NCBI GenBank assembly: GCA_017463245.1
Contig: JAFTPN010000005.1
Location: 1-44,191 of the forward strand
From: Clostridia bacterium
GTDB lineage: Bacteria; Bacillota; Clostridia; Christensenellales; Aristaeellaceae
Direction: 5' to 3'
Length of the DNA stretch: 44,191 bases
Position 1 is the stretch's first letter. Every line of letters starts with the position of its first letter. The translations under genes and the position numbers were made by a program. Shown in pieces: positions 7,536-42,749 of this stretch. The notes below the pieces were generated by a model. The model was not told the origin of the DNA. It ran no database searches and saw only the letters and a program-made list of their open reading frames with translations.

Positions 7536-7591
7536 ATGAGGTAAGCTTTGGCTTATCCTCTGTAGTAGAGGACTTGCTTCCACTCCCTCCC

Positions 7592-7625: not shown

Positions 7626-7648
7626 TCCACTTATCATGGTTAACGGAA

Positions 7649-9469
7649 TTATGAATGAATCTTTTTATGACATTCCGGGCATACTACCAATGTTTTTCGT
7701 CTGCGCAATCGCATTGCGCACACCCATTCGGCATTGCCCTTCAGGTCTTTGAGTTTCTTAACTTGATGGATTTCAGGATTTCTGCACTCTCTTCCGCATA
7801 GTTCACAGGTATGTTTTTCCACACGCTGTTTTAAGGTGTTAGGTTTTAAGTACTTGGAGTATTCCGGCAACTCATTCACATTGTCGAATTTTGTTGCCAC
7901 TTCCTTGCGCTTATATCCATCCCTGTAAAATGTCGTCGTTTTTACTCCTGATTTAGTTCCATAGGCAAGAGTAAACAGGTCGTTTACGCAGTATCTGCGC
8001 TTAATTTCGTGAACATTGGTCCTGTATTTACAGGCAAATGTCTTATACATGCTATACTTCATCACATTGCCGAAACAGCCTATTTTGAAGGCATTATTGG
8101 CAATCGAATAGTAATTATATAAGCCTCTCACTTCCGCGTTGTACGTTGTCAGTATTTCAATGTCACTCTTGTTTACCAGCCTGCCTCTGTGCAGGGCAAC
8201 AAATCGCTCTTTGCCGTTTTCATTGATTTTGATTTTTATTGCTCGATATTCCAGTAGTTTGCTGACCCACTTTTCTCTGGGCACTAGGAGCTTTACCACG
8301 CCAGTCTGACATCTTTGAATCTTTCCGTTAGATTGCTTTTTGAGCTCTTGGCTTCTCGAAACTGTAATGTCGTATCCCAAAAACCTCGCTTTGTCGCCTG
8401 TATGGGTGATTTTTGTCTTGGTATCCGACATTTCCAGCTTTAACGCATCTTGCAGAAACATTTTCACATCCTGCTTGACGTGTTCAGCATCCTTTTTACT
8501 GCCAATTACGCCGATAATAAAGTCATCCGCATATCTGGTATATTGGATACGTTTGAAATCCGTGTCCATCGGGATTGTCGGGGTCATACTTTTTTCTGCC
8601 CGTTCCAATTCTTTTAACTTCTTGCTTCTGACCTTCTTTTCATGCGACGATAACTGTTCCCAGGTTCTTTTGCCCTCGCGCCTATACATGTACGCTTGGT
8701 ATGTCTTGGCTTTATATGCCGGCGAAATCCGCTTTTTCTGCGCTTTCGTATTGAATGCCACTGCATATTGCTCCATGTACTTATCCAACTCGTTCATGTA
8801 AATATTGCAAAGGATGGGGCTTACTCCTGAACCCTGTGGAACACCACTGTAGGTTCTTTTGTATTCCCATTGCTCCATATATCCAGCCTTCAGGAATTTC
8901 CATATCAGCTGAATGAAGGCCTCATCATCAATTTTCCCTCTCAGGATGTTGATAATGATGTGATGGTCAAAGCTGTCAAAACAAGCGTGTATATCACCTT
9001 CCACAAACCAGTTTGTCCCTGTAAAGGTTTTCTGAATTTGCATCAGTGCTGTTTGGCAGCTTCGATTGGGTCTGAATCCGTGTGATTTATTGCTGAACAC
9101 GGGTTCATAGATACTTTCCAAAATCATTTTAACGACTTCTTGTAAGAGCTTGTCGTTGCCGGATTGTATACCCAGTGGACGCTTTTTGTTGCTGTTCTTC
9201 TTGGCAATATATTCACGCCTTGCCGGTTTGGGACGGTAACTTCGATTTTTCAGAGATTCGATTATCCTATTGATTTTCTCATCGCTCATCCCATCAATCG
9301 TCGTTCCATCTGCTCCGGCAGTCATACTGCCCTTGTTGGCATATATGTTTTTATACGCTAGCCAATAAAACTCAGGGTTATACAGATTCCGATATAGTCT
9401 CTGAAACCGATATGATTCATTCTTTGTTTTTTCCGATAAACTTTTTAATACCTCAGTTGGATTTCTCAT
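7649..9469 (-). CDS. ltrA-like: Group II intron-encoded reverse transcriptase/maturase with HNH endonuclease
   Basis: The 606-residue protein is full length. An N-terminal RT domain has conserved blocks (KRPLGIQSGNDKLLQEVVKM; SHGFRPNRSC; GDIHACFDSFDH; GVPQGSGVSPILCNIYMNE) and the catalytic YADD motif in RYADDFIIG near residue 315. A maturase X domain and then a C-terminal HNH/zinc module follow: CELCGREC, the H of EIHQVKKL, then CPECHKKIH. It promotes splicing of its own intron RNA and retrohoming into DNA. The start has AAAGGAGC about 13 bases upstream. It lies within intron domain IV, and no disabling mutation is visible. Confidence 0.96.
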   Translation of the reverse strand: MRNPTEVLKSLSEKTKNESYRFQRLYRNLYNPEFYWLAYKNIYANKGSMTAGADGTTIDGMSDEKINRIIESLKNRSYRPKPARREYIAKKNSNKKRPLGIQSGNDKLLQEVVKMILESIYEPVFSNKSHGFRPNRSCQTALMQIQKTFTGTNWFVEGDIHACFDSFDHHIIINILRGKIDDEAFIQLIWKFLKAGYMEQWEYKRTYSGVPQGSGVSPILCNIYMNELDKYMEQYAVAFNTKAQKKRISPAYKAKTYQAYMYRREGKRTWEQLSSHEKKVRSKKLKELERAEKSMTPTIPMDTDFKRIQYTRYADDFIIGVIGSKKDAEHVKQDVKMFLQDALKLEMSDTKTKITHTGDKARFLGYDITVSRSQELKKQSNGKIQRCQTGVVKLLVPREKWVSKLLEYRAIKIKINENGKERFVALHRGRLVNKSDIEILTTYNAEVRGLYNYYSIANNAFKIGCFGNVMKYSMYKTFACKYRTNVHEIKRRYCVNDLFTLAYGTKSGVKTTTFYRDGYKRKEVATKFDNVNELPEYSKYLKPNTLKQRVEKHTCELCGRECRNPEIHQVKKLKDLKGNAEWVCAMRLRRRKTLVVCPECHKKIHS

Positions 9470-10089
9470 GCCTCACGCATGCTCCTTTCGTTCTCGGTAT
9501 TTGCGATAAGCTGCTCCCCTTCGCCTTGTGATCGTCGTTAACGTCTCTGACTACTATGGGAGCTGTGTAGCCATGCCCGTTACCGGGTTTAGGCTATCTC
9601 CATTTAGTAACTACAGAATGAGCTTTCCATGTTGTCGGTATCGACTTTCGCCATTTACCCGCTGTCTTGCGGTTGCCTTTCCGCGAGTATCTCTTGCTTC
9701 CATAACTGCGAAATGCAAGCAACGCGGAAATCATACGTTTCAATCCTTTTCGTATATAGGGTCGGGATCCCTTGCTCTGGCTATCGTTCAGGCAGTTTAG
9801 CTTTATACCTCATACATGGAGTTTTATTCTTACACATTCAAGCGCACAGGATTATTGCTCTATTGTGTAGGCCGTTCTTGAAGGACGGCGGCGACATGCT
9901 GTACTCCCCTTTGGGTTTCCCCGCTCGGATAAGTCGCAGAATAATAGGTTGCCCCTGCACTTTATGAGCCTCCTTGTCTCGCTTCATTTGCAGGTAGCTT
10001 TGATACTTTTTCCTACCGCTTGCTAAAGGCGGTATTCTGTAGTTACCACACCACCGTTTTCCATTTGTTTTGGTGGCTTATGGACGCAC

Positions 10090-11475
10090 GCAGTTGCCGG
10101 TGATGGTATCGGCGTTGTCCTTGTAGATGGACTTGAGCTGACTCTGTGCCTGAAGGATGATGCTGGCGGAGATCTCACGGCTGCGGATGGTGGCGATGAG
10201 CTTTTCAAAATTGGGTATCTGCCCAATGTTGGCAAACTCATCGATCAGGCAGCGGACATGCACCGGCAGCCTGCCGCCGTATTCGTCATCCGCCTTCTCG
10301 CACAGGAGATTGAACAGCTGCGAATAAGCCAGACTGATGAGGAAGTTGAAGCTGGCATGCGTGTCCGACATGATCAGAAACAGCGCGGTGCGCTTGTCGC
10401 CGATGGTATCAAGCGACAGCTCGTCATAGGAGGTGATCTCCCGCAGCTCCTCAATGTCAAAGACGGCAAGGCGCGCGCCGCAGCTCACCAGAATGGATTT
10501 TGCCGTTTTGCCGGACGCCATCTTGTACTTCTGGTATTGGCGAACCGCAAAGTGCTCCGGCTTCCGCTGTGCCAGATCGTCGAATATCTCATCAATCTCG
10601 TTGCGGAAGTCCTCGTCGTCCTCCCGCACCTGCATCTTATCCAGCATGTCGATCAGCGTCGCAAAGTTCTGCTTCTCCGGCGGCAGCTCGTAATGGATGT
10701 AGCCGATCAAGGCGATGTACAGCAGCGTTTCGGCCTTCACCCAGAAATCCTCTCCGGCTTTGCCTTCACCTTTTGTGTTGGCAATCAGGGCCGTGACGAG
10801 CTTCAGGATGTCCGTTTCGCTGTGGATGTACGAGAGCGGATTGTAATGCATCGACTTTTTGAAGTTGATGGTGTTGAGAATACGCACGTCGTACCCGGCA
10901 GCGACCAGCATCTTGCCGCACTCCACGACAAGGGTTCCCTTCGGGTCTGTCACCACCAGAGAAGTGCCCTTGGTTTTGGTGCATTGCATGATGTTGGGCT
11001 TTACGAAGAATCTTGTTTTGCCGCTGCCGGAGCCGCCAATGACGAGCACGTTTTTGTTGCGCGCATATTGCGGGTTCTTGGGCCGGCTGTTCATCGTCAA
11101 CCGCTCAGTTTTCGTGAGGATTACGTTGTTCCACGGGTCCGGGTCGATGAACGGCTGAATGTCGCCGGGCTTGCCCCATCTGGCGGAGCCATACTCGACA
11201 TTGTGCCGGTACTTCTTGGCATTCCTGCCTTTTTCGTAGACGACCAGACGCAGCAGGCAGCCAAGGGTGATGCCCAGCAGAAGGTCTGCAGGAACAAAGC
11301 TGGGCCAAGGTGAGCGAAACGATGCGGATAGCCCGTCCATGATATGGAGCAGCTTTCCCGACATATCCGTTCCCTCAGCCAAGCGCCATGCTTCTCCCAG
11401 CTTGGTCGCATACAGGCCAATGAGCATATAAGGGAGATTGAGGATCAGCAGCTTCTTGAGCCGTGCTTTGTTCAT
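10090..11475 (-). CDS. virD4: VirD4-like coupling protein, 5' exon (before group II intron)
   Basis: These are the first 462 codons of the coupling ATPase that brings the relaxosome to the channel. The N-terminus has two membrane segments (KLLILNLPYMLIGLYATKL and PADLLLGITLGCLLRLVVY). Walker A GGSGSGKT lies near residue 150, and the conserved DEFANIGQIPNFEKLIATI near residue 411 is followed by QAQSQLKSIYKD. The exon ends in GNC, and the next base begins the intron; unspliced, the frame stops four codons later. The ATG overlaps the pcfB stop (ATGA), so the two are translationally coupled. Confidence 0.95.
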
Positions 11476-13430: not shown

Positions 13431-15806
13431 TCAGTTCTTCTTGTGCTTTCCTGCGCGGTGCTTGCGGATCAGCCCCGCAGCACCGCTGATGACCATCAGG
13501 CCAATGCCCACCCACATGACGCCGGTTACAGCCAGATTCACGCCGGTCTGGATGGTCGTGTAGTTGACGAATTTCCTCATTTCATCAGACACGACATAGG
13601 CTTCGTTGATCTTTACCCGGATGACCTCTCCGGAAACGCTGTAGCCCTCAAGCGTTTCGATTTCCTTGATGAAGTATTCGCCCGGCTCAAGATCCCGGAT
13701 GCTGACGATACCGTCCTCGCCGGATTCGTAGGTGCCGATGATTCTGCCGCTGGCATCCTCCACGGTGAACTTCGCGCCTGCCAGCGGCACGCCGGAGCTG
13801 TCCGTCTTGATGAACGCATAGTGGTTCGGGATGTTCACGCACATGATGGGCTTGGGCTCCGTCCAGTCGTCTCCAACATGAATGCGAATGTCCTCCATGC
13901 GGCAATAGCCATTGGGCGCGGCATTCTCACAAATCAGCCAGTCGCCATAATCGAATTGGCTGAAGGTGAATACGCCATCCTGATTGCTGACTGCGGTTTC
14001 GACCTTCTCCATGGTGCTGGCATTGTACAGGCTGAACGCGATGCCGGGCATCGGTGTGCCGGAGGTATCGACCTTGATGCAGGTGATCTTTTTCTCCCGG
14101 TTGATCACCGTCGCAAGGGGCTTGTCGCTGTTGGTATAGCCCTCGTCGATGGTGACGTGGATCACGTCCCTGCTCATCAGGTACCCGTCGGGCGCTGTGA
14201 GCTCTCGGATCGTGTACTTGCCAACCGCAGCACCCACGAAACGCACCAATCCCTCCGCATCCGACACGGCGGTCATGACCAGCTCGTCTTTCTCATCGAA
14301 CAGGCCGAACTGAGCGCCAGCCAGGGCGACATTGTTCTGATCGACCTTCTGAACCAGCAGCTCTGTCGGGCAGTTGGTCAGCGTGGCGATGGGCGCGTCC
14401 GGGTTTTTGAAGGTACCGTCCACCGTGATCGGGGTTTTTGTAGAGTCCTTCACATAGCCGGGCAGCGGCTTGATCTCCTCGATGGTGTAGGAGCCGTAGG
14501 GAATCTGCTCAAAGGTCGCCAATCCATCGCTGTCCGTAACAGCGGCCACATGGAGCGTGCCGTCCTCGCGGAAAAGCCCGTATTCAACGCCTTCCAGCGG
14601 CCTGTGCTGCGGATCGACCTTTTGGATGGAGAACCGGGTAACATCATCCGCAAGCGCAGTCTGTCCGACTACCTCCCCCTGTTCATTGACGGTGAAGGTC
14701 ATTTCGGACTCATTGAGCGCATACCCCTCCGGGGCCAGCACTTCCCGGTAGGTGTAGGTGCCGGGGACTGCAGGGAAAGCGGGCAGATAGCCGTCCTCTC
14801 CGGTATAGTCACGGCAGACGATTTTGCCCTCGCCGTTCCTGACCTCAATCAGCGCGCCGGGCAGAGCTGCAGAGCCGGTAATGTCGGTCTTTGCGATCCG
14901 CACATCCGCGTGGACAATCTCGTTGTGGATGGGCAGCCCCACCTGGAAAACAACCTCGTGCTGTTCGTCAGCAAACTCGTCCGTGATGGTGACGCGGTAT
15001 CGGGCATCGCTGAGCACCCAGCCCTCCGGGGCAGCCAGCTCCTGCACATAGTATTCGCCGTGGGGATAGTCGCCGGAAAAGGTCAGAGCGCCGTCCGCAT
15101 CGGTGATGCCGGTTTCAATCAGCGTATCGGCGGGCAACGTTCCGTCAGCATATTCAATGGGATCACTGCAATACAGGCCGAAGATAAAGCCCTCGCCGGG
15201 CACGTTCATCAGCCTGGAATGCACCATGCCGTCTTCATCATGCTGTGTGGTCACGATTCCCTTCTCTTTCGTCAACGTGATTCGTGCAGACATGAACTCA
15301 TTGATGGCAGAAAGGCGGGCTGTCACCACCGGGGTGGTGTGGTCTACGGCAGTCAGCGCAATCTCATGGCGCGTTTCATCCAGCACATACCCGGCAGGGG
15401 CGGACACCTCGGTCACGATGTATCGCCCAAGGGGCAGCGGATCTGTGACAACGCTGCCGCCTGCTGTCGTGGTTATCGTCGCAGCCAGCTCGCCTTTCTT
15501 GAACCAGACCGTCTGTTCTTTTCCAACGATGTCCTCGCTAGCGCGCACCTCATACACCGCGCCGGGCAGCCAGTCATCCTGATACAGCGGTGTGTGTACC
15601 GTATAGCCGAGCGTATCCCGGTTCTCGCTGAAGCCCTTCAGCACAAAGCCCCACTTGTTGATCTCAATCGTGCCCTTGATGGGCGTGTTGGAAACCGGAA
15701 TCTCCTGTACAGCCATTTCCCCGGCTTCTGCAAATGCCATGATGGGAATTGCGATGGCGAAGAGCAAAAGCAGCAGGAGAAAGCTGCGCATTCGTCTCAA
15801 CTTCAT
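13431..15806 (-). CDS. Secreted SpaA/Cna-B repeat surface protein with a sortase B-like sorting signal
   Basis: The 791-residue protein has a signal peptide (residues 1-27, SFLLLLLLFAIAIPIMAFA). About seven prealbumin-like SpaA/Cna-B repeats follow, each with a KxD start (KTDITG, KVDPQ, KVDQNN, KVDTSG, KTDSSG) and a YxxxExxxPxGY end with Glu of the isopeptide triad. At the C-terminus TIQTG is followed by a hydrophobic stretch (VMWVGIGLMVISGAAGLI) and a basic tail RKHRAGKHKKN. That motif resembles the NVQTG and (S/P)PxTG signals of C. difficile sortase B substrates rather than LPxTG. It is a paralogue of the 15876-17906 protein along most of its length. RBS AAGAGG precedes the ATG. Confidence 0.9.
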   Translation of the reverse strand: MKLRRMRSFLLLLLLFAIAIPIMAFAEAGEMAVQEIPVSNTPIKGTIEINKWGFVLKGFSENRDTLGYTVHTPLYQDDWLPGAVYEVRASEDIVGKEQTVWFKKGELAATITTTAGGSVVTDPLPLGRYIVTEVSAPAGYVLDETRHEIALTAVDHTTPVVTARLSAINEFMSARITLTKEKGIVTTQHDEDGMVHSRLMNVPGEGFIFGLYCSDPIEYADGTLPADTLIETGITDADGALTFSGDYPHGEYYVQELAAPEGWVLSDARYRVTITDEFADEQHEVVFQVGLPIHNEIVHADVRIAKTDITGSAALPGALIEVRNGEGKIVCRDYTGEDGYLPAFPAVPGTYTYREVLAPEGYALNESEMTFTVNEQGEVVGQTALADDVTRFSIQKVDPQHRPLEGVEYGLFREDGTLHVAAVTDSDGLATFEQIPYGSYTIEEIKPLPGYVKDSTKTPITVDGTFKNPDAPIATLTNCPTELLVQKVDQNNVALAGAQFGLFDEKDELVMTAVSDAEGLVRFVGAAVGKYTIRELTAPDGYLMSRDVIHVTIDEGYTNSDKPLATVINREKKITCIKVDTSGTPMPGIAFSLYNASTMEKVETAVSNQDGVFTFSQFDYGDWLICENAAPNGYCRMEDIRIHVGDDWTEPKPIMCVNIPNHYAFIKTDSSGVPLAGAKFTVEDASGRIIGTYESGEDGIVSIRDLEPGEYFIKEIETLEGYSVSGEVIRVKINEAYVVSDEMRKFVNYTTIQTGVNLAVTGVMWVGIGLMVISGAAGLIRKHRAGKHKKN

Positions 15807-15837
15807 CTGATTACCTCTTTTCTTAGTATAGAGCGTA

Positions 15838-15868
15838 AGGAAAAGGCAGCGGTTTGGCCCGCTGCCTT
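15838..15868 (-). terminator. Terminator between the two SpaA-like genes
   Basis: A perfect 10-bp stem (15843-15852 with 15859-15868, AAGGCAGCGG) with a 6-nt loop is followed on the minus strand by TTTTCCTT. It lies just below the stop at 15876, so the 791-aa gene may need its own promoter or receive reduced read-through. Confidence 0.8.
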
Positions 15869-15875
15869 CTGCAGT

Positions 15876-17906
15876 TTACTCTTCGAGAGATACCGGCTGC
15901 GGTTCGGGCTCCTCAGGAATCCGAACCGTGGTGGAATACCCGTCGTCCAGATAATCATCCGGCACGACGGTTTCGACGATCTCATACGCACCCCAGGTCA
16001 GCAGCGGCGTCTGCGCCATGCCGTTTTCGTCCGTCGTGATCACAGCGACCACCTCACCATCGCCCTCGCCGTTATGGGAAGGCAGGCCGGAGATGCGCGT
16101 CACGGTGAACTCCGCGCCGGGCAGGCCGTTTCCAGTTTCGCTGTCCGTCTTGACAATGCGGATGACGCCCTGAATCGGCATGTTGGTCACGCAGCGGGTC
16201 ACCAGCTCATCCATGCCCACAGTGATTCGCTCGCTCCAGAGCGTATCCTCATAGCCGGTGGGGTTGGCGTGCTCACGCACGATGTAGTCGGCGGGGAACA
16301 GGTCGGGCGATTCCGCAATGCCCTGATCATTCGTTGTCATCTGCGCAACGCGATCCATGGCGTTCCCGTCCTCGTCTACTGAGAAAATGTCAAACTGTAC
16401 CCCGGCAATCGTGTGCTGATCCAGCGCATCCTGCTTCGTGATCCTGATTCGTCCCGGCGCGTCCTCGTTGACCACCGTCGCCAGCACTGTGGTGGGATTG
16501 AGGTAGGTGCCGTCAATCGTCACTGTCCACTCCTCTGCAGACGGGTGGTAGCCGTAGGGCGCGCTGATCTCGCGGATGGTGTACTCGCCGTATGCGATCT
16601 GCTGGAACAGCACGGAGCCATCCGCAGCGGAGGTGGCTTCCTGCACCTTATTATCTTCGCCGTCAAACAGACCGAACACCGCGCCCGCCAGTGCTTCGCC
16701 ATTCTGCTTGGTCTTTTTCAGCATCACCTTGTTCAGCTCGTCCCGGATCACGGTATCGCCCGTCACCTTGCCGTCGGCAGTCACCGTGAAGGTCTTGATC
16801 GCGGTATTCAGCGCATAGCCGCTGGGGGCGTAGGTTTCCTTGAAGGTGTAGGTTCCGGGCACAACGGGGATGTTGGGGATTTCGCCGTTCTCGTTGGTGT
16901 ATTCGCGGTAGATGGTGTTTCCTTCCGAATCATACACCTCAATGAGTGCGCCCGGCAGCTTCTTGGCACCGGTAATATCCGTCTTGGTGATCGTCACGGG
17001 CGTGTAGATCAGGCGATTCAGGATGGGATTTTCCAGATAGACGGTGATGACGTTCTCGTTGACGGCTTTATTCGCGGAAGTCAGCGTCACAGGGTACTTC
17101 TCCGTGCTGAGCAGCCAGCCGTCTGGCACGGACAGCTCCCTGATATAGTAATTGCCGTGGGGATATAGGCCGGAGAAGGTCAGATTGCCCTGGGCATCCG
17201 TCGTGCCGGTAGCTACCAGCGTATTGGCAGGCAGCTTCTGGCTGTCGCCATAGGTGATGATCTCGCCGGTGTACAGACCAAAGACGAAGCCCTCGCCGGG
17301 ATAGACCTCAACCGTCTGGTGGATCATGCCCTCCTGCGTCTGCGTCAGCAGCAGATCTTCCTTCTGCTTGCGCAGGGTCACGCGCACCGGCAGATAGGTG
17401 TTGCTGGCAGTCACCTTGACCTCGACAATCGCGGTCTGCTGATCCACGGCAGACAAGGTGAAGGGATGGGGCGTACTATCCAACACATAGCCGTCCGGCG
17501 CGGAGATTTCCGTGAAGGTATACTTGCCCAGCGGCAGCACCTTGGATTTGACTGAGCCGGTCTTGCTGGTGGTCAGCGTCTCGATCAGCTCGTCCTTCTG
17601 ATAGAACACGGAGCCCTCCTTGCCCACGATGTCCTCGGCAGCGCGCAGCTCAAAGACTGCGCCGGCCAGATAGCCGTTTTGGAACACCGGGCGCATGACG
17701 GTGTTGCCGTAGGTATCCTGCTCATCCTCGAAGCGAACGAGCTGCAGGCCGGTCTTTTCCAGCAGCACATCGCCGCGCACCGGCGTGTTGGTTACGTTCA
17801 CCGTGATCGTCGGCGTTTCGGCAGCCAGAGCGGACGCCGCCGTAACGGACAGCAGCAGAAGCATGGTCATGCCCAGACGGAGCAGTCTCTTCATGAATCT
17901 CATCAT
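15876..17906 (-). CDS. Secreted SpaA/Cna-B repeat protein without a sorting signal
   Basis: The 676-residue protein has a signal peptide (residues 1-28, LGMTMLLLLSVTAASALAAE). Around six SpaA/Cna-B domains follow, with KTDITG, KTKQNG, KQDALD and KTDSETG starts and repeated SAPxGY ends. It aligns domain by domain with the 791-aa neighbour, for example shared EDIVGKE and KTDITG...LPGALIEV blocks. Its last domain (RIVKTDSETGNGLPGAEFTV) instead matches the last domain of the 938-aa protein. It ends in EPEPQPVSLEE with no membrane segment or LPxTG-like motif, so how it stays on the cell is unclear. GAGGAGG lies upstream of the ATG. Confidence 0.88.
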   Translation of the reverse strand: MMRFMKRLLRLGMTMLLLLSVTAASALAAETPTITVNVTNTPVRGDVLLEKTGLQLVRFEDEQDTYGNTVMRPVFQNGYLAGAVFELRAAEDIVGKEGSVFYQKDELIETLTTSKTGSVKSKVLPLGKYTFTEISAPDGYVLDSTPHPFTLSAVDQQTAIVEVKVTASNTYLPVRVTLRKQKEDLLLTQTQEGMIHQTVEVYPGEGFVFGLYTGEIITYGDSQKLPANTLVATGTTDAQGNLTFSGLYPHGNYYIRELSVPDGWLLSTEKYPVTLTSANKAVNENVITVYLENPILNRLIYTPVTITKTDITGAKKLPGALIEVYDSEGNTIYREYTNENGEIPNIPVVPGTYTFKETYAPSGYALNTAIKTFTVTADGKVTGDTVIRDELNKVMLKKTKQNGEALAGAVFGLFDGEDNKVQEATSAADGSVLFQQIAYGEYTIREISAPYGYHPSAEEWTVTIDGTYLNPTTVLATVVNEDAPGRIRITKQDALDQHTIAGVQFDIFSVDEDGNAMDRVAQMTTNDQGIAESPDLFPADYIVREHANPTGYEDTLWSERITVGMDELVTRCVTNMPIQGVIRIVKTDSETGNGLPGAEFTVTRISGLPSHNGEGDGEVVAVITTDENGMAQTPLLTWGAYEIVETVVPDDYLDDGYSTTVRIPEEPEPQPVSLEE

Positions 17907-17924
17907 TATTGTGTTTCCTCCTCA

Positions 17925-20741
17925 TCATTGGATGGTTACGGTGGTTGTGTACCCGGCATCCAGATAGCCATTCGGCACGCCGGTTTCGGTGACGCTGTAC
18001 TGCCCCCAGGGGAGAAGCCCTGTCTCAGCGATGCCCTGGGCATTGGTCGTGATGGTCGCTACAACCCTGCCGATGTCGGCGGCATTGTCGGAAGCCGGGC
18101 CGGAAAGGCGCGTAACAGAAAAGACAGCTCCAGCCAGCGGTTTGCCGGTCAGGCTGTCCGTCTTCACCACCCGGATGCGGCCCGTGATGCGGTCATTGGT
18201 AAAGGAGACATTGGTAGTCGTACCCGCAGCGACGGTCACGCCGGACGAGGACGGCGCAGACAGCGCATAGCCCTCAGGCGCGCTTTTCTCCCGAACGGTA
18301 TAGGTGCCGGGCGTCAGGTCGGCAAAGAGCACCACGCCGTCCGAGCCGGTCGTCTTTGTCGCCAGAACAGAACCAGCGCTGCTGAGCAGCTCAAAGACTG
18401 CACCCTTCAGGAGAATGCCATCCGAAGATTTCTTGGTGACCTTGATTTCGCCCGTGCTCAGTTCAAAGGAGACGCTGGCGGTTTGCAGGGCATACGGGGA
18501 GCCGTACAGCGGAACCATGATCTTCTGGATGGCCACGCTGGGGATGCCGACGAGGAAATTGGCTTCCTCATCGTCCGAGGAGATGGATTCCATGGAGACG
18601 GCAAACCGGCTGCTCGATGAAGTTACCCGGATGGTATCGCCGCTTTTGATGTAGTAGTAGCTGCCGTCCGAGCCACCGCTGTTGCCGGTCAGCGTGCCCA
18701 CCGACCTCGGAATGCGGATCAGGTCGGCATCCGTGGTCAGGGTGACAGTGCCGATGTAGCTGGAGCCGGACACGCTCAGGCTCTGATTGGAGGCTGTGAT
18801 CTTGCCCGTGATGGATGCGCGGGCAATGCCGTTTTCCGCGAGCCATCTGGCGTAAGTCAGGTACACAGCCGGTGCGCCGCCTGAAAAGGCGTAGAAGTTG
18901 TCCATATCCCAGTAGCTGCGGACATACTGCGAGCCTTCGAGCTGCTTGATCACCTCGCGCATGGCAAACTGCCCTGCAACGCGCGACCAGACCTCATTGT
19001 TGGAATCGCTGCGATTGAGCGCCATGAAGGGGTAGGTGTGGCGCAGTACCCAGGCCAGCGCGTGCATGGTCTTCGCGGAAAAGCGCACGCCCGAAACACC
19101 GCCGCCGCCGGAGTTGTTGACAAAATAATCCATATCCACCAACACATAGGGGCCTTTTGCGGTCTGGCTTGAACCCGATCCTTCGCCGGGGCCGGAAAGC
19201 GTATGCTCCAGACAGTACACCGTGAAGCCCTCCAGATAGTGCGGCGTGGCATAGATCGTGCCGTGAGAGGCGGACTTGGCGATCTGGGGGTAAGCGCTGT
19301 CCCTGCCCGAGCTGCCATACAGGGAGGACTGCCAGGCATAGAAGCCGCCGATGCTGCCGTTGATGTTTTTCAAGGAGAAGCCGTTCATGGGTGTGGAATA
19401 CAGGCTGATGTCCATTGCCTGCAGTGCCTCAAGAAATTCCTGAGAATAGGCAAAATCCGTCACCGTACAAGCATCGCAGCCAGCAGGGCCAGTTTCAGCA
19501 GCCATGACCCAGCAGGTGGCGTAGTCCGTCCACTTCATGGTGCCGTCCGCAAAATCGTCACCATACAGGAAGCGCACCTCGTACCAGCCGTTGCCCAGCT
19601 CATCAGTGGTGACGGACAGCACCTGCACGGTCGCACCGCTCACAAACTGCCCGAGGTACCCGTCACAGTAATCATCCTCGATGGCGTATTCGTTGACGTA
19701 CTCCAGGACGCGCGTATCGGTCGTAACGCTGACATAATCGCCGGGCGCGGCAAGCACTAGCGCATCGGGGGCTTCTTCGGGAGACAGGATTTCTTCCATG
19801 TCCGTAACAGGAAGCTGTTCGGCTGCATCACCAAGTTCACCCGGTTCGGGCTGAAGCCCGACAGCGTCATCCAGCGTTTTCGCATCAGGCTGCTGTTCGT
19901 CGGACACAGGGCCCTCCTGCGTTTCCGCAGGAGCAGTATCTGCGTCCTGTGTCGGCTGTACGCCGCTGACGATGAACAGGGGCATCAGGCCGATGTCCGT
20001 CATGCCCTCGCCTGCGGGGAAGAAACTGATCTGCGGAATATCCTCATCCAGCAGATAGCTGCTGTCCAGATCATCCGCACGGGCATAGCCACAGATGACT
20101 TCGCCTGTTTCGCTCAGAAACCACACCTTCACCGATGCGGGAGCGGCAAACTCGGTTGCCAGGACGAGAAAGACATCCTCCGTCGTGGTGTAAACCAGCG
20201 ATTCTTCTGTCATTGCGGCGTCGCTGTACACGCTGGCCTTGTGGACGGTGGCAACGTAGACATGACCGTGTTCGTCAAGCGCCGCCTGAATCGGGAGCCT
20301 GTCGTCGGGTACGGTCTCCTCGTCGGGAATCTGTTCCTCTTCATCGGCCTCAACCGGCCCCTCCTCAGCGACCGGCTCATCAGGAGGCACTTCTTGTTCT
20401 TCATCACTCTGCGGTTCATCGGCAGGCAATTCATCAGTATTGTTTTCTACGGATTCTTCCTGCTCGGAAGCAGAGTCATCCAAAGCGGGTTTGCTGTCAC
20501 CATCGGATTCATCGGGTGCTTCCGATTCCTCCAGGGCAGGTGCATCATCTTCTTTCTCGATCTCCTGTTCATCGGAAGGGAGCGTTGGCTCCGGCATCGC
20601 CTCGCCATCCGTGGCGATGATCGGGGGAAGATCGGTGGGCGTTGTGGCTTCCGCCCATGCACCCACAGGCATACAGCCGAGTGCCATGTTCATCGCCAGC
20701 ACAAGCGCTGCAAGCCGTTTGATTTTTCGTCTCAACTGCAT
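17925..20741 (-). CDS. Secreted thioester-domain adhesin with SpaA domains
   Basis: The 938-residue protein has a signal peptide (residues 1-32) and a long acidic Glu/Asp/Pro-rich region to about residue 160. Two SH3-like segments follow (one around VYVATVHKASVYSDAAMTE, one around VSVTTDTRVLEYVNEY). A thioester domain of the Cys-Gln type has its Cys in VYCLEHTL near 509 and its Gln in AGQFAMREVI near 591. Two C-terminal SpaA/Cna-B domains end in GYTTTVTIQ. Thioester domains of Gram-positive adhesins bond covalently to host or surface amines. No sorting signal or membrane anchor is present. It is the first adhesin gene after the sortase; RBS is AAGGAG. Confidence 0.88.
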   Translation of the reverse strand: MQLRRKIKRLAALVLAMNMALGCMPVGAWAEATTPTDLPPIIATDGEAMPEPTLPSDEQEIEKEDDAPALEESEAPDESDGDSKPALDDSASEQEESVENNTDELPADEPQSDEEQEVPPDEPVAEEGPVEADEEEQIPDEETVPDDRLPIQAALDEHGHVYVATVHKASVYSDAAMTEESLVYTTTEDVFLVLATEFAAPASVKVWFLSETGEVICGYARADDLDSSYLLDEDIPQISFFPAGEGMTDIGLMPLFIVSGVQPTQDADTAPAETQEGPVSDEQQPDAKTLDDAVGLQPEPGELGDAAEQLPVTDMEEILSPEEAPDALVLAAPGDYVSVTTDTRVLEYVNEYAIEDDYCDGYLGQFVSGATVQVLSVTTDELGNGWYEVRFLYGDDFADGTMKWTDYATCWVMAAETGPAGCDACTVTDFAYSQEFLEALQAMDISLYSTPMNGFSLKNINGSIGGFYAWQSSLYGSSGRDSAYPQIAKSASHGTIYATPHYLEGFTVYCLEHTLSGPGEGSGSSQTAKGPYVLVDMDYFVNNSGGGGVSGVRFSAKTMHALAWVLRHTYPFMALNRSDSNNEVWSRVAGQFAMREVIKQLEGSQYVRSYWDMDNFYAFSGGAPAVYLTYARWLAENGIARASITGKITASNQSLSVSGSSYIGTVTLTTDADLIRIPRSVGTLTGNSGGSDGSYYYIKSGDTIRVTSSSSRFAVSMESISSDDEEANFLVGIPSVAIQKIMVPLYGSPYALQTASVSFELSTGEIKVTKKSSDGILLKGAVFELLSSAGSVLATKTTGSDGVVLFADLTPGTYTVREKSAPEGYALSAPSSSGVTVAAGTTTNVSFTNDRITGRIRVVKTDSLTGKPLAGAVFSVTRLSGPASDNAADIGRVVATITTNAQGIAETGLLPWGQYSVTETGVPNGYLDAGYTTTVTIQ

Positions 20742-20761
20742 GTATTTCTCCTTTTCAATTT

Positions 20762-21691
20762 CTACTCTTGGACTGCCATGACAATCAGCCGTCCGCTGGC
20801 TCCGCCATAGCTGCGGTCGCAGGTAATCAGCGTCAGAATGTGGTCATCTTCTTTCACCTCAACATCCGTACTGTACAGTGCCTTCCGTTTGGCACGGTTC
20901 ACGAACTGAAGAAACGCCTTGCCGCTGCCAAATGACGCAGCAGCCGGGTCCCAATCGCTGACCTTCATGTTCAGCACGGCAAAGATGCGGTAGCTGCGCC
21001 TGCCGTGGATACTGTCCAGCGTAATGACGCTATGCTCCGCGTAATACGCTTCCTGTTTATAATCAATGAGCGTACTGAACATCGCGTCACTATGGCTCAG
21101 ATGGTGGCCATAGATGGCGATGTTCTGGCTGGGCTGCTGATAGTCCGAGCTTTTCAGCGAAAACAGGCATCCCAGCTTGCTTTTCTTCCCGCTAAACAGG
21201 TGGCTCAGGTAATACGCGGAATTATCCGAACGAACGACGGGGTAGCTGATCACGGTGCCGGGAATCGAAAGCCAGGCAACGAAGTCCTTGTTTTGGGCCA
21301 GACATGCCTCCAAATCAATGCCGGAGTCAAAGACAGCCTGAGCATCCGGGGAGGGAGAAGCGGTCTGCTGGGGATTCGGTGCATTGGGTGATGGGGAGGA
21401 TGATGTCCAAGCATCGGTTGCCATGCCCGCCAGAGGATACGACTCGGTTCCCGGCAACGGCGCGGTTTCTGCGTCGTTCTCGATGCTGCCGGTTGGAGCG
21501 GGAAGCGGAATGATCGGGATAGGGCTGGGGGATGGAGCATTGAAGCTCATCTCTGCAATCTCCGCATACACATTCTCATCCGCTCGGTACGCAGCCAGTT
21601 CCGAGGCAAGCGGAAGCACAAACGCGGCTGCACCGCATAGGAACATGGCGAGCAGCAATATGGAAGAAAGGGCTATTTGATGTTTCTGCAA
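20762..21691 (-). CDS. srtB: Class B sortase
   Basis: The 309-residue protein has an N-terminal membrane anchor (ALSSILLLAMFLCGAAAFVL), a Pro/Ser/Ala-rich linker to about residue 120, and a class B sortase domain. Catalytic His lies in IYGHHL near 194, Cys in TLITCDRSYGG (291) and Arg in GRLIVM (301). It should transpeptidate the sorting signal of the 791-aa SpaA protein onto peptidoglycan or onto another subunit. The start is a TTG at 21691, with TTGGAG 7 bases upstream. It lies 20 bases upstream of the adhesin genes, so they form one unit. Confidence 0.94.
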   Translation of the reverse strand: MQKHQIALSSILLLAMFLCGAAAFVLPLASELAAYRADENVYAEIAEMSFNAPSPSPIPIIPLPAPTGSIENDAETAPLPGTESYPLAGMATDAWTSSSPSPNAPNPQQTASPSPDAQAVFDSGIDLEACLAQNKDFVAWLSIPGTVISYPVVRSDNSAYYLSHLFSGKKSKLGCLFSLKSSDYQQPSQNIAIYGHHLSHSDAMFSTLIDYKQEAYYAEHSVITLDSIHGRRSYRIFAVLNMKVSDWDPAAASFGSGKAFLQFVNRAKRKALYSTDVEVKEDDHILTLITCDRSYGGASGRLIVMAVQE

Positions 21692-23602: not shown

Positions 23603-24025
23603 TCAAGCGGACTGCGTTTGAAGTATGCCTTTTAGCTCTGACAATGCTATTTCATGCCGACTATAGATACTGGATCGACTGAGATGAAGCTCCTTCGCAA
23701 TGGCTGGCATCCGCTTATGCTCCACATACCGCAGCTTCAAAATATCGGCGTTCATGGGATCATCAATCCTTTGAAGAAGAGAACAAACCTGACTGCGCAA
23801 GTCACTGTACTGCTGTTCCGCTTCGGCATACTCCTGCTCAGCTTCCATCAGGCGGATAACAGCGTTCTCGTTGGCGGTAACGTCGCGCGATCTTGAAACA
23901 CATTCACCGCCCAGCACTGCCGAGGCTTTTGCCGCTGCTGCCCGGCAGAAGGATACCCGCTCTTCCGCTGCAGTCAGGCGGCGTTCTGCAAACCGCAGCT
24001 TTTCAAAAAGCGTATCAACCGGCAT
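23603..24025 (-). CDS. Sigma-70 region 4-like HTH protein
   Basis: The 140-residue protein starts MPVDTLFEKLRFAERRLTA at 24025, with GGAGG 7 bases upstream. The first 100 residues form a long helical, coiled-coil-prone region. The C-terminal 50 residues (DILKLRYVEHKRMPAIAKEL then HLSRSSIYSRHEIALSELK) are a sigma-70 region 4-type helix-turn-helix. Similar small proteins occur in phages and ICEs as late-gene or transfer regulators. It overlaps the upstream 107-aa gene by one base (TAATG) and could bind at the adjacent 10-bp repeats. Confidence 0.8.
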   Translation of the reverse strand: MPVDTLFEKLRFAERRLTAAEERVSFCRAAAAKASAVLGGECVSRSRDVTANENAVIRLMEAEQEYAEAEQQYSDLRSQVCSLLQRIDDPMNADILKLRYVEHKRMPAIAKELHLSRSSIYSRHEIALSELKGILQTQSA

Positions 24026-24348
24026 TACATCACCTCCTTTTGCAGTCTGTCCAGCAGATCGTATCCATCCAAATCCGACAGAACCGAAAACCATCTGGAA
24101 AAGAAGAAATTGCCGGCAGCATCCTGTTTCTCTTTATATTGCTGCAAGCGCTGCGCCTGACAAGCCAATTCAGATGGAGTCATTTCCTTATTCCTTTTGA
24201 GGCGTCCACGGATTCGTTTCATCATCCGGGCGCGGTTTCGATAATCCTTGACTGCCTGAATGATAATGGCGTCGGCCAGCGCCTGCCATGATTCTGCTTC
24301 TACCTTGACGTTACCGTCCACGGCACTCTTTGTTTTTTCTATAATCAA
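24025..24348 (-). CDS. Hypothetical 107-aa protein, coupled to the sigma-like gene
   Basis: The 107-residue, mostly helical, basic protein starts at a TTG at 24348, 8 bases after AGGAG. The central KDYRNRARMMKRIRGRLKRNKEM is strongly positive and could contact nucleic acid; the C-terminus is FFFSRWFSVLSDLDGYDLLDR. I recognise no family with certainty. The stop overlaps the start of the next gene (TAATG), so the two are translated together. Confidence 0.7.
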   Translation of the reverse strand: MIIEKTKSAVDGNVKVEAESWQALADAIIIQAVKDYRNRARMMKRIRGRLKRNKEMTPSELACQAQRLQQYKEKQDAAGNFFFSRWFSVLSDLDGYDLLDRLQKEVM

Positions 24349-24386
24349 TCAAAACTCTCCTATATAATTCACATCTTCCATGAAAC

Positions 24387-24421
24387 AGAAAAAGCCAACT
24401 ATTCTTACGAATAGTCAGCTT
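24387..24421 (-). terminator. Terminator ending the two-gene cargo cassette
   Basis: AAGCCAACTATTC (24392-24404) pairs, with one mismatch, with GAATAGTCAGCTT (24409-24421) around a TTAC loop. On the minus strand it is followed by TTTTTCTG. It separates the cargo genes from the 107-aa gene. Confidence 0.8.
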
Positions 24422-24442
24422 TCTTATCACAAAGCCTTATCT

Positions 24443-25166
24443 TCAATCGCCGGTATTGTTCCCATTCTGATCATTCACGATTTTCTTAAGAGCATAATCG
24501 ATCAAGATCAGTTCCTTTTGCCTTAATTCTTCTTCCTTTTCTGCATTCTCATCCTCATCTGTGAAATACACAAAACGACAGGCAACATTAGTTCTAAACA
24601 GAATAATTGTATTGTATATTGTACTCTTAATCTCGCACAACACTCGTAAGCTGAACACTAGAAATACGCATATCAATATAGAAGCCAGTACACAGTCAAA
24701 GACGAAGTTTTCAGTAAGCCGATAATCATCAGGGATACACTTCATAGCAATCAGTATCGATAAAGAAAGCAAAATACTCATGAAATACAGAAATAAAACG
24801 CTCTCGAAGTATTCTGTACATACTCTTAGTTGGCTTTTGCCGTCAGATTCAGGAGAATTCGCAAGTAGCTTCATGAAATCGTTATTTAGGAATGACAATA
24901 AGATAGAGTACACTGTAAAAAGCACTCCAAATACAGCGATCTGAATAGTAAGGAAAATTTCGATGACATTTCGAAATACTTCTACTGTTTCTTCATGAAA
25001 GCCAATGCCAATTGAAAGAACAAGTGCAAGTATTCCAGAATAAACCCAAACTCCCCCCCCAGTTCTTCTTGTCAGGTTTTATTTCCTTCAAAGCATTGAT
25101 AAGAAGTTTTTTTGCAGGTGGTACAGTTTTGTATTCGTCAATTATCTTTTTGAAACTCTCATTCAC
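24443..25166 (-). CDS. Four-helix membrane protein of the cargo cassette, frame broken at a G8 tract
   Basis: From a GTG at 25166 that overlaps the stop of the 319-aa gene, the frame runs VNESFKKIIDEYKTVPPAKK... to a run of eight G (25060-25053 on the minus strand). It then goes out of phase and stops about 18 codons later. With seven G it would continue to 24443 as a protein of about 240 residues with four membrane helices: around WVYSGILALVLSIGIG, IEIFLTIQIAVFGVLFTVYS, FLYFMSILLSLSILIAM and FDCVLASILICVFLVFSL. A charged cytoplasmic tail (DEDENAEKEEELRQKE) ends it. The intact part alone is a 160-aa frame starting at a GTG at 24925. The gene is AT-richer than its neighbours. Function unknown; phase variation or a sequencing error are both possible. 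Confidence 0.7.
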
Positions 25167-26118
25167 ACCCCATCATCCTTATACTGTCAATTATTTTTTT
25201 AATGCTTGGTTTGAATCGTTCATATAGTGCCCTGTTTTCATCGCTGGTTTGCTTTACAACCGGATCACTCATAGCTTGCTCAATGAAGTAAGCGTCATTC
25301 GCGGGTTCAATATTTTGAGATAGTGGCACTTGCTTCTGCGACACAAAAGATTCCTCTTTTATCCTTGTCTTATTTCCATGAGAGTCGATTACATCCATCG
25401 TTACTGTCGCCAATCCCGAAGAACTATTCAACAATCCTTGAATTTCCTTTTTTGACTCTGGTGAAGTAAACTCAAGTAAAGCATGTTTACTTTTCGTCTT
25501 CTTCATTTGCTCATCAATGCCCCGCGCAATAAGCTCTGGATTTATGTCATTATTTAGAGGAAAGAACTTCATTCGGAGCTTCTTGACTTGCTTAATCGTT
25601 TTTAGGACCTCCTCAATATCATTTGGAAGAGGGATATCTACGATATTCACAAACGCATACGGAAGCCGTTGATTTTTGTTTTCCTCTTTAAGGTTATGCT
25701 GTCGAACATAGTGATGAAGCATCTTGTTGACTGTCACCTGAAAACTTCTTACATCCGGACTCTTACCTTCGTTTCTAATGAGAATCATTTTGTGGTTCTT
25801 CAAAAATATAATAAATCTCGAATAAGGTGCTGTAGGGACCTTTTGGGGAGAGTCAACCAGCTTACCATCCTGAATCGTAGTAAGAACGTTATATTGCGTA
25901 TCCTTAATATAATTTCCCACTAATACATACTCATCGTTGATTTCCTTTATTTCAACATCACTTACATAAAAGGAAGCCATGCCTCCAGAGTTAACTCTTC
26001 GAAAGTCTTTTTCAAGGAAAGCCGGAAACACAATGTCAGCAAAATGAGTAAGCATCGGCTCATCATTCGGGCCGAATGTAACATTGAAGTTTGCGTAATG
26101 CATGATCTTTTCTGGCAT
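25159..26118 (-). CDS. 319-aa soluble protein of unknown function, first gene of the cargo cassette
   Basis: The 319-residue protein begins MPEKIMHYANFNVTFGPNDE. It has no signal peptide or membrane segment. A beta-rich N-terminal half (ASFYVSDVEIKEINDEYVLV, SRFIIFLKNHKMILIRNEGK) is followed by a helical stretch (VTVNKMLHHYVRQHNLKEEN). A second alpha/beta part follows (EVLKTIKQVKKLRMKFFPLN; ALLEFTSPESKKEIQGLLN; VTMDVIDSHGNKTRIKEESF). The layout faintly recalls DUF4747-type proteins, but I cannot assign it. It is translationally coupled to a four-helix membrane protein and sits in a clearly AT-richer island in the ICE, an arrangement common for defence or other cargo genes. Start choice is uncertain because no strong ribosome site is seen. 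Confidence 0.72.
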   Translation of the reverse strand: MPEKIMHYANFNVTFGPNDEPMLTHFADIVFPAFLEKDFRRVNSGGMASFYVSDVEIKEINDEYVLVGNYIKDTQYNVLTTIQDGKLVDSPQKVPTAPYSRFIIFLKNHKMILIRNEGKSPDVRSFQVTVNKMLHHYVRQHNLKEENKNQRLPYAFVNIVDIPLPNDIEEVLKTIKQVKKLRMKFFPLNNDINPELIARGIDEQMKKTKSKHALLEFTSPESKKEIQGLLNSSSGLATVTMDVIDSHGNKTRIKEESFVSQKQVPLSQNIEPANDAYFIEQAMSDPVVKQTSDENRALYERFKPSIKKIIDSIRMMGCE

Positions 26119-26440
26119 GGCAAGTCAACTCTTTCTTAAGTGATAGTTTTGTATTACTTCTCTTACGCCACCCTCCTTTCCTGCTAATTCAAACAATTTA
26201 TTGCCTATTGTGGAATTAGATTACCCGTTCTTACACTAATCCTTTAACATACCGTTCCAATAAACGCAGCATTCGTAGCCAGCAAGGTTTCTTCGTCAGT
26301 CAAATCAGCATTGTTTTTTGATTCCTATCCATCATATCCTCTTAGTATATGCAGTCATCAGTTGTTTACAAACCTTACTGAGCATCATCACCTATTCCAA
26401 TCTTCAGCGAGATGTCCGCCGCCAAGTTATCCGTATGAAA
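26119..26440 (-). other. Intergenic region upstream of the cargo cassette, no intact gene
   Basis: About 320 bases, AT-rich, with no complete gene. On the minus strand an AAAGGAGGG sequence (around 26175) is followed at once by a stop in all useful frames. A short open stretch (reading ...NADLTDEETLLATNAAFIG, ending near 26250) looks like the tail of a lost gene. This may be a scar of cargo exchange next to the replication gene. The promoter for the cassette should be here, but I see no clear -35/-10 pair. Confidence 0.45.
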
Positions 26441-27364
26441 TTACAGAATCCCTGCGCTTCGTACCTCCGCATCGTAGTAATTGCTCATCGTCGTTGGTGC
26501 ATGATAAAGCGTCGTCATCAGGTACTGCCGGATATTTCGCACCTCCGTGTGCTTCTTGTCCAGGCTCAGGAAGACGTACTCGATGTGATGATAGCTCAGC
26601 TTTTTGAATCGGCTCTTGACCACCTCAGCGGGGTAATTCTCCCCTGCGACCTTGATATACGGCTTGCGGCTGCACAGCGTTTCCGTCATGATCTCCACGA
26701 TCTCATCCAGACGTTCATGGTCGTGCGGCGTGTCCAGCGCATCGTATTCGATTTGCTCCTTGACCTCAGCAAGTGTTCTCCGGTACTCCCGTGCATCCAT
26801 CTGATCCATATCGCTCATGCCCGTATCGGCTTGCTGTGCCCTTTGTTTTTGGATCATGATTGGATCAGGATTTGATTTTTGGGTATTTAATTCATACGTA
26901 TTGGATACCTGAGTATTTAATTGCGCAGGCTTTTCCGTATACGGCGCATCCGTTCGCGACGTTACCGTATCCGGGGAAACCATATACGGGTTTTCCGTAC
27001 ATGGTGAAGCCGTATCCGGTTCGTCCGTGCCCTGCGAAACCTTATCCGGCAAATCCGCTTCCGTTTCCTTGTGTGGGCTCTCATAGACGACATACTCCGT
27101 GTCCGAGATGCGCCCGCTCCTGTCGCGCAGGCGGTGACGGGCGAGATACCCGGCGCTTTCCAGCTCGCGCAGGGCTGCGCCGATGCTGTCCACGCCTTCC
27201 TTGCAGATGGCAGCCAGTCCGCGCGTCGTGTAATTCCAATCCTCCGGCAGGGACAGAATAACGGACAGCAAGCCCTTGGCCTTGAGGGATATTCCCCTGT
27301 CCTTGAGATGAACATTGCTCATGACCGTGTAATTCCGATTCTTCTCTACGCGAAAAACAGCCAC
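26441..27364 (-). CDS. Replication-initiator-like winged-helix protein (DUF6017-type C-terminus)
   Basis: The 307-residue protein starts at a GTG at 27364, 7 bases after GGAGG. Residues 1-95 (HLKDRGISLKAKGLLSVILS ... WNYTTRGLAAICKEGVDSIG) form a helix-turn-helix domain of the kind found in plasmid and phage replication initiators. The middle is a low-complexity Thr/Pro/Asp linker. The C-terminus (EIMTETLCSRKPYIKVAGEN ... YHHIEYVFLSLDKK) matches the conserved DUF6017-like part of ICE replication proteins. It probably starts or regulates replication of the excised circle. It is the rightmost ICE gene. Confidence 0.82.
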   Translation of the reverse strand: MAVFRVEKNRNYTVMSNVHLKDRGISLKAKGLLSVILSLPEDWNYTTRGLAAICKEGVDSIGAALRELESAGYLARHRLRDRSGRISDTEYVVYESPHKETEADLPDKVSQGTDEPDTASPCTENPYMVSPDTVTSRTDAPYTEKPAQLNTQVSNTYELNTQKSNPDPIMIQKQRAQQADTGMSDMDQMDAREYRRTLAEVKEQIEYDALDTPHDHERLDEIVEIMTETLCSRKPYIKVAGENYPAEVVKSRFKKLSYHHIEYVFLSLDKKHTEVRNIRQYLMTTLYHAPTTMSNYYDAEVRSAGIL

Positions 27365-27909: not shown

Positions 27910-28842
27910 TTATTCGTACTTCGGCACCTGCTCGCTTACGCCAATGCCCAGCAGCTCGGTGGTGCGGCGGGCGTTGCCGGCCTTGTTGTTGGCGCCGCCC
28001 ACAATGTTCAGCTGCTCGCCCATAAAGAGGATGCAGGCGGTTTCGCCGCCGTCCAGGTTGAAGGCGGTGGTGCAGCCGCGGGCCAGCATCTTTTCGGCCA
28101 GGAAGTCCACCGTGCCGCCCTTGCTTTCCTTGCAGCGGCCTTCCAGCATCATGGCGAAGGTGTGGCCGGGCTCCACCATGCCGATGGCGGCGCGGGGGTT
28201 GCGGCTCTTGCTCAGGTGCGCCAGGCCTTCGGTGTTGATCACCCCGTCGCGGATCAGGTAGGGGCCAAAGGCCAGGGTGGTGGTCACGCCCATGGCTAGG
28301 TATTCATCGGCGGTCTTTTCGTCGGAGTCGTAGACCTCCATCCGGCCATCGGGATACAGCGCCAGCACGTCCAGGTTGGGGAAGCCCTTGTAGGTGGACT
28401 TGCGGGTCTTTTTGGAGAAAACCTTGCCATTGCGGATGATGATGCCCACGGAGGTATCCCGCTTGGGATAGCGGTACTGGGCAAAGTCCGTGCTGATGGC
28501 CAGCACTGCCTGGTTCTTCTGCGCAACGATGTACGGCCAGGAGTTGGTGCTCATGTGCTTGCCCTCTTCGTTGGTGAACAGGCGCCACACCTCATCATTG
28601 CGGCTCCACACCTCCGCCTCGTACCAGCGGACTTTGATGGGCTCTTCCTCCGAGCGGCGGATGATCTCGATCTTCAGATCCTGGCTGGCATAGCGCCACA
28701 CGCCTTCTTCCTCGTTGGCGTAAACGAATTCACCCTCGTCCAGATAGCCCTCCGCATTCAGCTGAGGGAACTCCCCCTCGGCCAGGCAGGTGGAACACAC
28801 CAGCAGCAATATTGCCCACAGGCACAGGATCCTTTTGATCAT
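27910..28842 (-). CDS. Secreted phosphodiester glycosidase family protein (NAGPA/DUF2233-like)
   Basis: The 310-residue protein has a signal peptide (residues 1-21, ILCLWAILLLVCSTCLAEG). The phosphodiester glycosidase domain is recognised by AVLAISTDFAQYRYPKRDTS, LAFGPYLIRDGVI, NPRAAIGMVEPG and the hallmark AFNLDGGETACILFMG near residue 270. Enzymes of this family uncover sugar phosphodiesters, and in bacteria they are thought to act on wall or capsule polymers outside the cell. The start has GAAGGGG upstream. It is the first chromosomal gene beside the ICE junction. A distant paralogue is at 42750-43616. Confidence 0.9.
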   Translation of the reverse strand: MIKRILCLWAILLLVCSTCLAEGEFPQLNAEGYLDEGEFVYANEEEGVWRYASQDLKIEIIRRSEEEPIKVRWYEAEVWSRNDEVWRLFTNEEGKHMSTNSWPYIVAQKNQAVLAISTDFAQYRYPKRDTSVGIIIRNGKVFSKKTRKSTYKGFPNLDVLALYPDGRMEVYDSDEKTADEYLAMGVTTTLAFGPYLIRDGVINTEGLAHLSKSRNPRAAIGMVEPGHTFAMMLEGRCKESKGGTVDFLAEKMLARGCTTAFNLDGGETACILFMGEQLNIVGGANNKAGNARRTTELLGIGVSEQVPKYE

Positions 28843-42683: not shown

Positions 42684-42712
42684 TTGTCAATCATCTGCCA
42701 AAAGAGTATAAT
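42684..42712 (+). promoter_or_regulatory. Promoter of the second phosphodiester glycosidase
   Basis: TTGTCA (42684-42689) and TATAAT (42707-42712) are 17 bases apart, 37 bases upstream of the ATG at 42750. Confidence 0.82.
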
Positions 42713-42749
42713 ATATGCTGCTATTTTATTTCGATCGGAGAGAACCGAC

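Follow-up and report, generated by a model that had tools for sequence, protein, structure and literature searches.

P1–P2 is a mobile cassette of two genes that moved into the ICE of a Clostridia bacterium, and by analogy it probably represents a mobile two-gene phage-exclusion module of the RexAB type. RexAB was the first abortive-infection system to be seen. P1 is RexA-like in position and architecture, P2 is RexB-like in position and topology, and a defence function for the pair is likely when judged against the characterized Rex systems. The cassette lies in a stretch of 44,191 nucleotides (contig JAFTPN010000005.1), which is referred to throughout as the window.

Both genes are on the minus strand of the window. 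P1 (25159–26118) is an open reading frame encoding a soluble protein of 319 amino acids that belongs to no curated family and has 31 distinct relatives with a membrane-protein gene behind them. P2 (24443–25166) is the membrane-protein gene and has a GTG start; its frame is broken here, leaving pieces at 25056–25166 and 24443–25054. P1 ends in ..GAATGA and P2 begins with the GTG inside GTGAATGA (window position 25166), giving an 8 nt overlap that is the same in L002, a near-copy of the element in another genome; the overlapping arrangement with a GTG start put forward in the original prediction was thus recovered in both copies. The GC content of the cassette (24310–26230) is 0.373, compared with 0.536 for the upstream gene, 0.510 for the downstream gene and 0.553 for window positions 1–22000, and the cassette is therefore AT-richer than the surrounding ICE (0.51–0.55), as had been noted. 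The stem-loop previously described as the cassette's own terminator is located behind P2 on the correct, minus, strand (24424–24389), but the scan returned three such terminator-like sites in the region against 2.2 expected by chance. A promoter scan 5' of P1 gave five sites against 6.7 expected.

Upstream, the cassette is flanked by the gene for an ICE protein with HTH_36 and DUF6017 domains (26441–27364, minus strand). The other flank (23603–24348, minus strand) comprises a 107-codon frame (24025–24348), inside the annotated 5' end of which the cassette edge falls, and a DUF1492/sigma-region-4-like gene (23603–24094), with ParA/ParB-like genes (named by eye) beyond it. Among 200 genomes of the family, 41 have a DUF6017 relative and two have P1 (own genome counted). 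Sixteen ICE regions were fetched for comparison, and 14 were compared after two (L111 and L112) had been dropped as too short. The block of DUF6017 gene, 107-codon frame and DUF1492 gene was common to three of these 14 (G197, G096 and G144); the pair is present in G197 and absent from the site in G096 and G144, the DUF6017 genes of which are ∼90% identical. The spacing from DUF6017 to the next ICE gene is ∼260–280 bases in these two relatives, whereas the window has ∼2.1 kb at this place; similarity to their DNA stops at ∼26432–26440 and resumes at ∼24310–24306. The cassette together with an upstream scar therefore occupies 24307–26435, a segment without similarity to the empty sites of G096 and G144 and also distinguished by its GC content. 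The scar (26231–26431, minus strand) appears by eye to be the decayed remnant of a small open reading frame that stands behind DUF6017 in the empty relatives. Direct repeats, a sign of a known insertion mechanism, were not evident at the cassette edges. The occupied site in G197 (L002, contig C15) belongs to a near-copy of the element, from a genome of a different genus in the family; it aligns with the window at 96.8% identity across 7,985 positions and at 94.2% across a further 2,603, and the two P1 sequences are 100% identical. The upstream scar and the description of the pair as exchangeable cargo between ICE genes are borne out by these comparisons, the site being empty in two close relatives.

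Several other features of the window were recorded. A 606-residue group II intron-type reverse transcriptase (7649–9469) seemingly lies inside a VirD4/TraG-like coupling-protein gene (7068–11475, minus strand), pieces of which flank it at 10078–11475 and 7068–7637 (names assigned by eye). Repetitive wall-type proteins of 791, 676 and 938 residues followed by a sortase-like gene are encoded at 13431–21691 (minus strand); by eye, these proteins resemble Cna-B-type adhesins that the ICE carries. Two chromosomal genes for 310-residue proteins on opposite strands (27910–28842 and 42684–43616) look paralogous by eye.

P1 has no hydrophobic segments in a simple Kyte–Doolittle test, in keeping with the soluble 319-residue product originally described. 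No family in Pfam, NCBIfam or PADLOC covers it, and a sequence search of the PDB gave no match (best E values of 0.15 and 0.73). Pfam matches to Ig_TMM62, Gon7, PB1 and SIKE were sub-threshold and scattered and were discounted. Relatives of P1 are 305–352 residues long; relatives at 21–48% identity are encoded on a Salinivibrio plasmid (NZ_CP114585), in Klebsiella P2-type phages, on IMG/VR contigs of unknown host and by two further genomes of the phylum.

P2 of the window has to be read in two frames, with profile matches at 24536–25054 and 25056–25163, and a homopolymer tract is present at the break point. In L002, P2 is a single open frame of 239 codons with four hydrophobic segments and a charged tail. 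The four membrane helices and charged tail that had been claimed for the frame-repaired product are both seen in this intact copy, but the number of helices is approximate: by the Kyte–Doolittle test, which was the only one applied, the 28 intact P2 proteins have four segments in 14 cases, five in 12, six in one and three in one. The proteins are 201–239 residues long. P2 diverges fast, since a tblastn search of P2 against phages gave no match even though phage 4LV2017 carries the gene, and BLASTP between the window P2 part and the Salinivibrio P2 gave an E value of only 0.22. With its P2 frame-broken, the window's version of the pair is probably inactive, except if the break arose in assembly or the tract can switch; P1 without P2 would not be expected to protect. 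Other broken copies are L005, on the Klebsiella plasmid NZ_CP083056, in which P1 is open and the P2 frame is interrupted close to the 5' end, and L068, in which P1 is broken; partner loss may be common, or these may be sequencing errors.

The pairing is fixed. A P2 gene, whether whole, cut or broken, immediately follows P1 at every one of the 31 distinct loci examined beyond the window, and 28 of these pairs are intact; the exceptions are L005 (P2 broken), L068 (P1 broken with P2 open) and L008, which runs off the end of its contig. Near-identical Klebsiella-type copies (L011–L016 with L003, and L017–L018) account for about eight (7–9) of the 31 and were counted as separate contigs, and the count leaves out the E. 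coli copies and 12 further Klebsiella phage records. The start-to-stop gap between the genes ranges from −8 to 44 nt. When used separately, the P1 and P2 profiles each matched the same three of 398 genomes of the phylum (own genome included), and all four virus loci found with P2 (three already known and one new) also contained P1. The distances between P1 sequences and between P2 sequences are correlated (r = 0.87 over 20 of the 31 loci; no value as high in 5000 permutations), as is partly expected from linkage. Values of dN/dS were 0.07–0.27 in five of eight comparisons and were not obtained in the other three; they were given no weight because dS (2.3–5.3) is saturated. Besides the Klebsiella phage 4LV2017, the IMG/VR virus contigs and the Salinivibrio plasmid, a 1,657-base Klebsiella-type pair occurs at 98–99% identity, always on the chromosome, in 11 of the 5,426 complete E. 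coli genomes searched. The pair is thus conserved outside the element; its confinement to this one ICE had been named beforehand as grounds for rejecting a defence pair. In the Klebsiella phage record (NC_047818) the 201-residue P2 (L003, 6040–6645) is unannotated, and in the E. coli copies it is labelled 'hypothetical protein'.

The gene order is cI, P1, P2, integrase in phage 4LV2017 (Peduoviridae) as well as in the two E. coli prophages retrieved, and in a plasmid prophage (L005) the pair is placed with a CI repressor. In L060 an HTH_3 repressor gene and an M78 (IrrE/ImmA-like) gene precede the pair, which is followed by a serine recombinase (the last identified by eye), and in L010 a sub-cutoff HTH match and an M78 gene lie ahead of it. 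About half of the virus loci, read mostly by eye, place the pair beside late genes and outside the lysogeny module: in L019, L021, L023, L066, L067, L068 and L124 it appears by eye to be flanked by a late-regulator-like gene on one side and HNH/terminase genes on the other, and Pfam supported just two such neighbours, HNH (L066) and sigma-70 region 4 (L022). A CI repressor neighbour is absent in several virus loci and in the ICE; published pairs, as with Sbash and Butters, are likewise not always placed with one. The pair is temperate-phage cargo found at more than one kind of site, with the lysogeny module a frequent location; in the window its carrier is an ICE. Its position near a late regulator and terminase in some loci would also suit a control module of the phage or ICE without a defence role, such as a modulator of lysogeny and lysis, or a surface or stress gene, and RexA without RexB can act on the bistable switch of lambda according to the available part of PMC11077077. 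This reading is very improbable, because the ICE has no phage switch, the pair is missing from close ICE relatives and its sites differ between elements, all of which argue for cargo.

Some neighbouring genes recur. A gene for NA37 (37-kD nucleoid-associated protein) stands directly behind the pair in L007 (7605–8609, E = 5.6e-36) and in L009 (7739–8752, E = 3e-38), where an M78 gene is also found after the pair; NA37 is a possible third partner. A DUF1492/sigma-70-region-4-like gene adjoins the pair in the ICE (23603–24094) and in L022 (834–1241), in a different order. On the Salinivibrio plasmid (L004), a small gene with hydrophobic stretches lies behind the pair (9694–10389) and gave a sub-threshold match to PADLOC PDC-S19 (E = 0.008).

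The arrangement of P1–P2 was compared with those of described RexAB-type systems. In lambda (NC_001416; PF15969/PF15968) a gene for a soluble protein is followed by a small membrane-protein gene next to cI, as for P1–P2 in 4LV2017 and two E. coli prophages, but RexA and RexB are shorter (279 and 144 residues versus 305–352 for P1 and 201–239 for P2) and there is no sequence or profile match. The CarolAnn gp44/gp43, Sbash gp30/gp31 and Butters gp30/gp31 pairs likewise consist of overlapping genes with the soluble one first (370–403 residues for the soluble and 165–187 for the membrane proteins), although neither protein has a significant profile match in P1–P2. In the Pseudomonas putida system RexABpp (PP_5643–5644) a soluble protein and a predicted four-helix membrane protein are encoded near a CI-like repressor in a prophage, the likeness being one of description in the part of PMC12894663 that was available. 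The lambda, CarolAnn and P. putida pairs share with P1–P2 a soluble and a membrane gene, overlap or close spacing and, for some of the P1–P2 loci, a repressor-proximal site. From the same portion of PMC12894663, both RexABpp genes are required for defence, RexApp binds DNA, overexpression of RexApp causes RexBpp to halt growth and to permeabilize some cells, and five RexAB-like systems have been described so far by the authors' count. RexA is a DNA-binding dimer with an RdgC-like structure, and three actinophage homologues also bind DNA (PMC11077077, available in part).

Direct homology of P1 and P2 to RexA and RexB was examined with full-length and sub-domain HMMs against the lambda, CarolAnn, Sbash, Sejanus, DumpsterDude and Butters proteins. 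The P1 profile for decoy-controlled hhalign contained 21 members and was judged against 86 decoys; the HMM search used 182. Lambda RexA and RexB match their own Pfam families (E = 1e-97 and 9e-92), whereas no P1 tested matches the RexA families (PF15969 and phrog_12654). Neither the window P2 part nor the Salinivibrio P2 has a Pfam match to RexB (PF15968), and hhalign with lambda RexB gave 0.5 percent. The hhalign score of P1 was 17.0 against lambda RexA (seven of 86 decoys as high), 21.3 against a CarolAnn–Sbash–Sejanus profile (1/86), falling to 18.7 when DumpsterDude was added (2/86), 17.4 against Butters gp30 (6/86) and 11.4 against DumpsterDude alone (62/86); in the HMM search lambda RexA ranked behind 14 of the 182 decoys. 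Nothing was significant relative to the decoys, full-length or by sub-domain, and direct homology was not supported. The same profile method, however, also gave no links among lambda RexA, the CarolAnn-type proteins and the Butters protein, the only link among accepted RexA-like proteins being that of the CarolAnn-type group with DumpsterDude (96.6%), and PHROG places lambda RexA, CarolAnn gp44 and the Klebsiella P1 in three different families. Because the method fails on accepted RexA-like relatives too, the negative comparison does not refute kinship of P1 with RexA.

The original prediction mentioned DUF4747 (PF15931) in passing, which is weakly in line with the RexAB reading: a weak DUF4747 relationship has been reported for lambda RexA, CarolAnn gp44, Sbash gp30 and Butters gp30 (PMC6426606, PMC6426596 and PMC7542560, each in the part available), and a 'DUF4747/CarolAnn prophage system' is recorded behind 17 of 443 capK genes, where it is counted as a known or predicted immune operon (PMC13373217, accessible portion). 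RefSeq names the E. coli P1 'DUF4747 family protein' in two of 11 genomes. No P1 scanned, the E. coli allele included, matches PF15931, and the model matched none of 12 records, among them CarolAnn, Sbash, Butters and lambda, at E ≤ 10. The Klebsiella P1 matches phrog_10040 (E = 3e-10), which is not matched by P1 of the window, L060 or L061; a single degenerate locus in G373 is matched by phrog_10040 (E = 6.8e-5) and, sub-cutoff, by DUF4747 (E = 3.6e-4), and both models also match weakly in control genomes. Of the proposed DUF4747 relationship, a direct family match was thus not found in any P1 scanned, and what stands is a weak indirect link that may run through phrog_10040.

Kiwa had been offered as the analogy for P1–P2, and it resembles the pair in having two genes, one for a membrane protein and one for a soluble protein of ∼315 residues. 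Loci for comparison came from a PF16162 (KwaB) search, which identified four of 199 phylum genomes, three of them above the cutoff. PF16162 matches neither P1 nor any other protein in its own genome; comparison with two KwaB proteins and two proteins in the KwaA position gave probabilities of 0.8 and 0.1 percent, and the KwaB score of 16.9 was equalled or exceeded by seven of 86 decoys. The membrane gene is first in both Kiwa loci fetched, in which KwaA was labelled by position, whereas it is second in P1–P2. With no KwaA or KwaB similarity and a reversed gene order, identity with Kiwa was rejected and the analogy was abandoned. P2 also matched the PADLOC candidate PDC-M67B, weakly, in the window (E = 4.4e-4) and in one of 12 P2 relatives (E = 0.001); as no P1 tested matches any PADLOC model, assignment to PDC-M67 was rejected, and no paper using this name was found. 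A two-component defence pair that does not descend from RexAB and has another trigger and effector, for example a Kiwa-like membrane sensor, would agree with the lack of detectable RexA/RexB sequence similarity and with the weak PDC-M67B match, but the family search, the profile comparison and the gene order all rule out Kiwa itself, and the layout and cI-proximal position are those of RexAB, making such a pair unlikely.

The plan of a soluble-protein gene ahead of a small membrane-protein gene, in several phages beside cI, is that of lambda, CarolAnn, Sbash, Butters and RexABpp, and on this ground P1 is proposed as the sensor and P2 as the membrane effector. By extension from the Rex systems, P1 would be a cytoplasmic sensor, probably a DNA-binding dimer as RexA is, that recognizes an intermediate or an early protein of the incoming phage; once activated, P1 would switch on P2, which would make the membrane leaky, stopping growth and aborting the infection. 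For phages the pair would serve in lysogeny, being expressed together with the repressor or close to it and protecting the host. In mycobacteriophage Butters, with the same gene order and layout, the roles are described as reversed (PMC12894663 and PMC7542560, from the parts available), and on that model P1 would be the toxic antiviral agent and P2 would restrain it. This reversal is improbable for P1–P2, slightly more so than a pair unrelated to RexAB: an unrestrained toxic P1 would be expected to be lost first, whereas the window and L005 keep P1 intact with P2 broken, although the cases number just two and may reflect assembly errors. The sensor and membrane-effector defence pair first proposed is accordingly retained as a likely phage-exclusion pair of RexAB type, on the strength of the conserved pairing (31/31), the Rex-like layout and carriage by phages.

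A more tentative possibility, less favoured than the RexAB-type module itself, is that P1–P2 constitutes a separate, unnamed exclusion family that reached the RexAB plan independently or diverged past recognition, occurs in phages and in two or more bacterial phyla, also serves a conjugative element by keeping the host alive or free of phage, and has a membrane partner that may switch at its homopolymer tract.

The family adds 31 loci outside the window and 11 E. coli prophage copies to the few RexAB-like systems described. Current family libraries miss the members tested, with none found by Pfam and one weakly by PADLOC. The E. coli prophage pairs beside cI are directly testable in E. coli, and a fixed pair with wide sequence variation would help in finding what activates RexA-type sensors. 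No published report of a RexAB-type pair on an ICE was found in literature searches, as far as the available parts of the sources extend; carriage by the ICE would extend a RexAB-type system from phages to conjugative elements.
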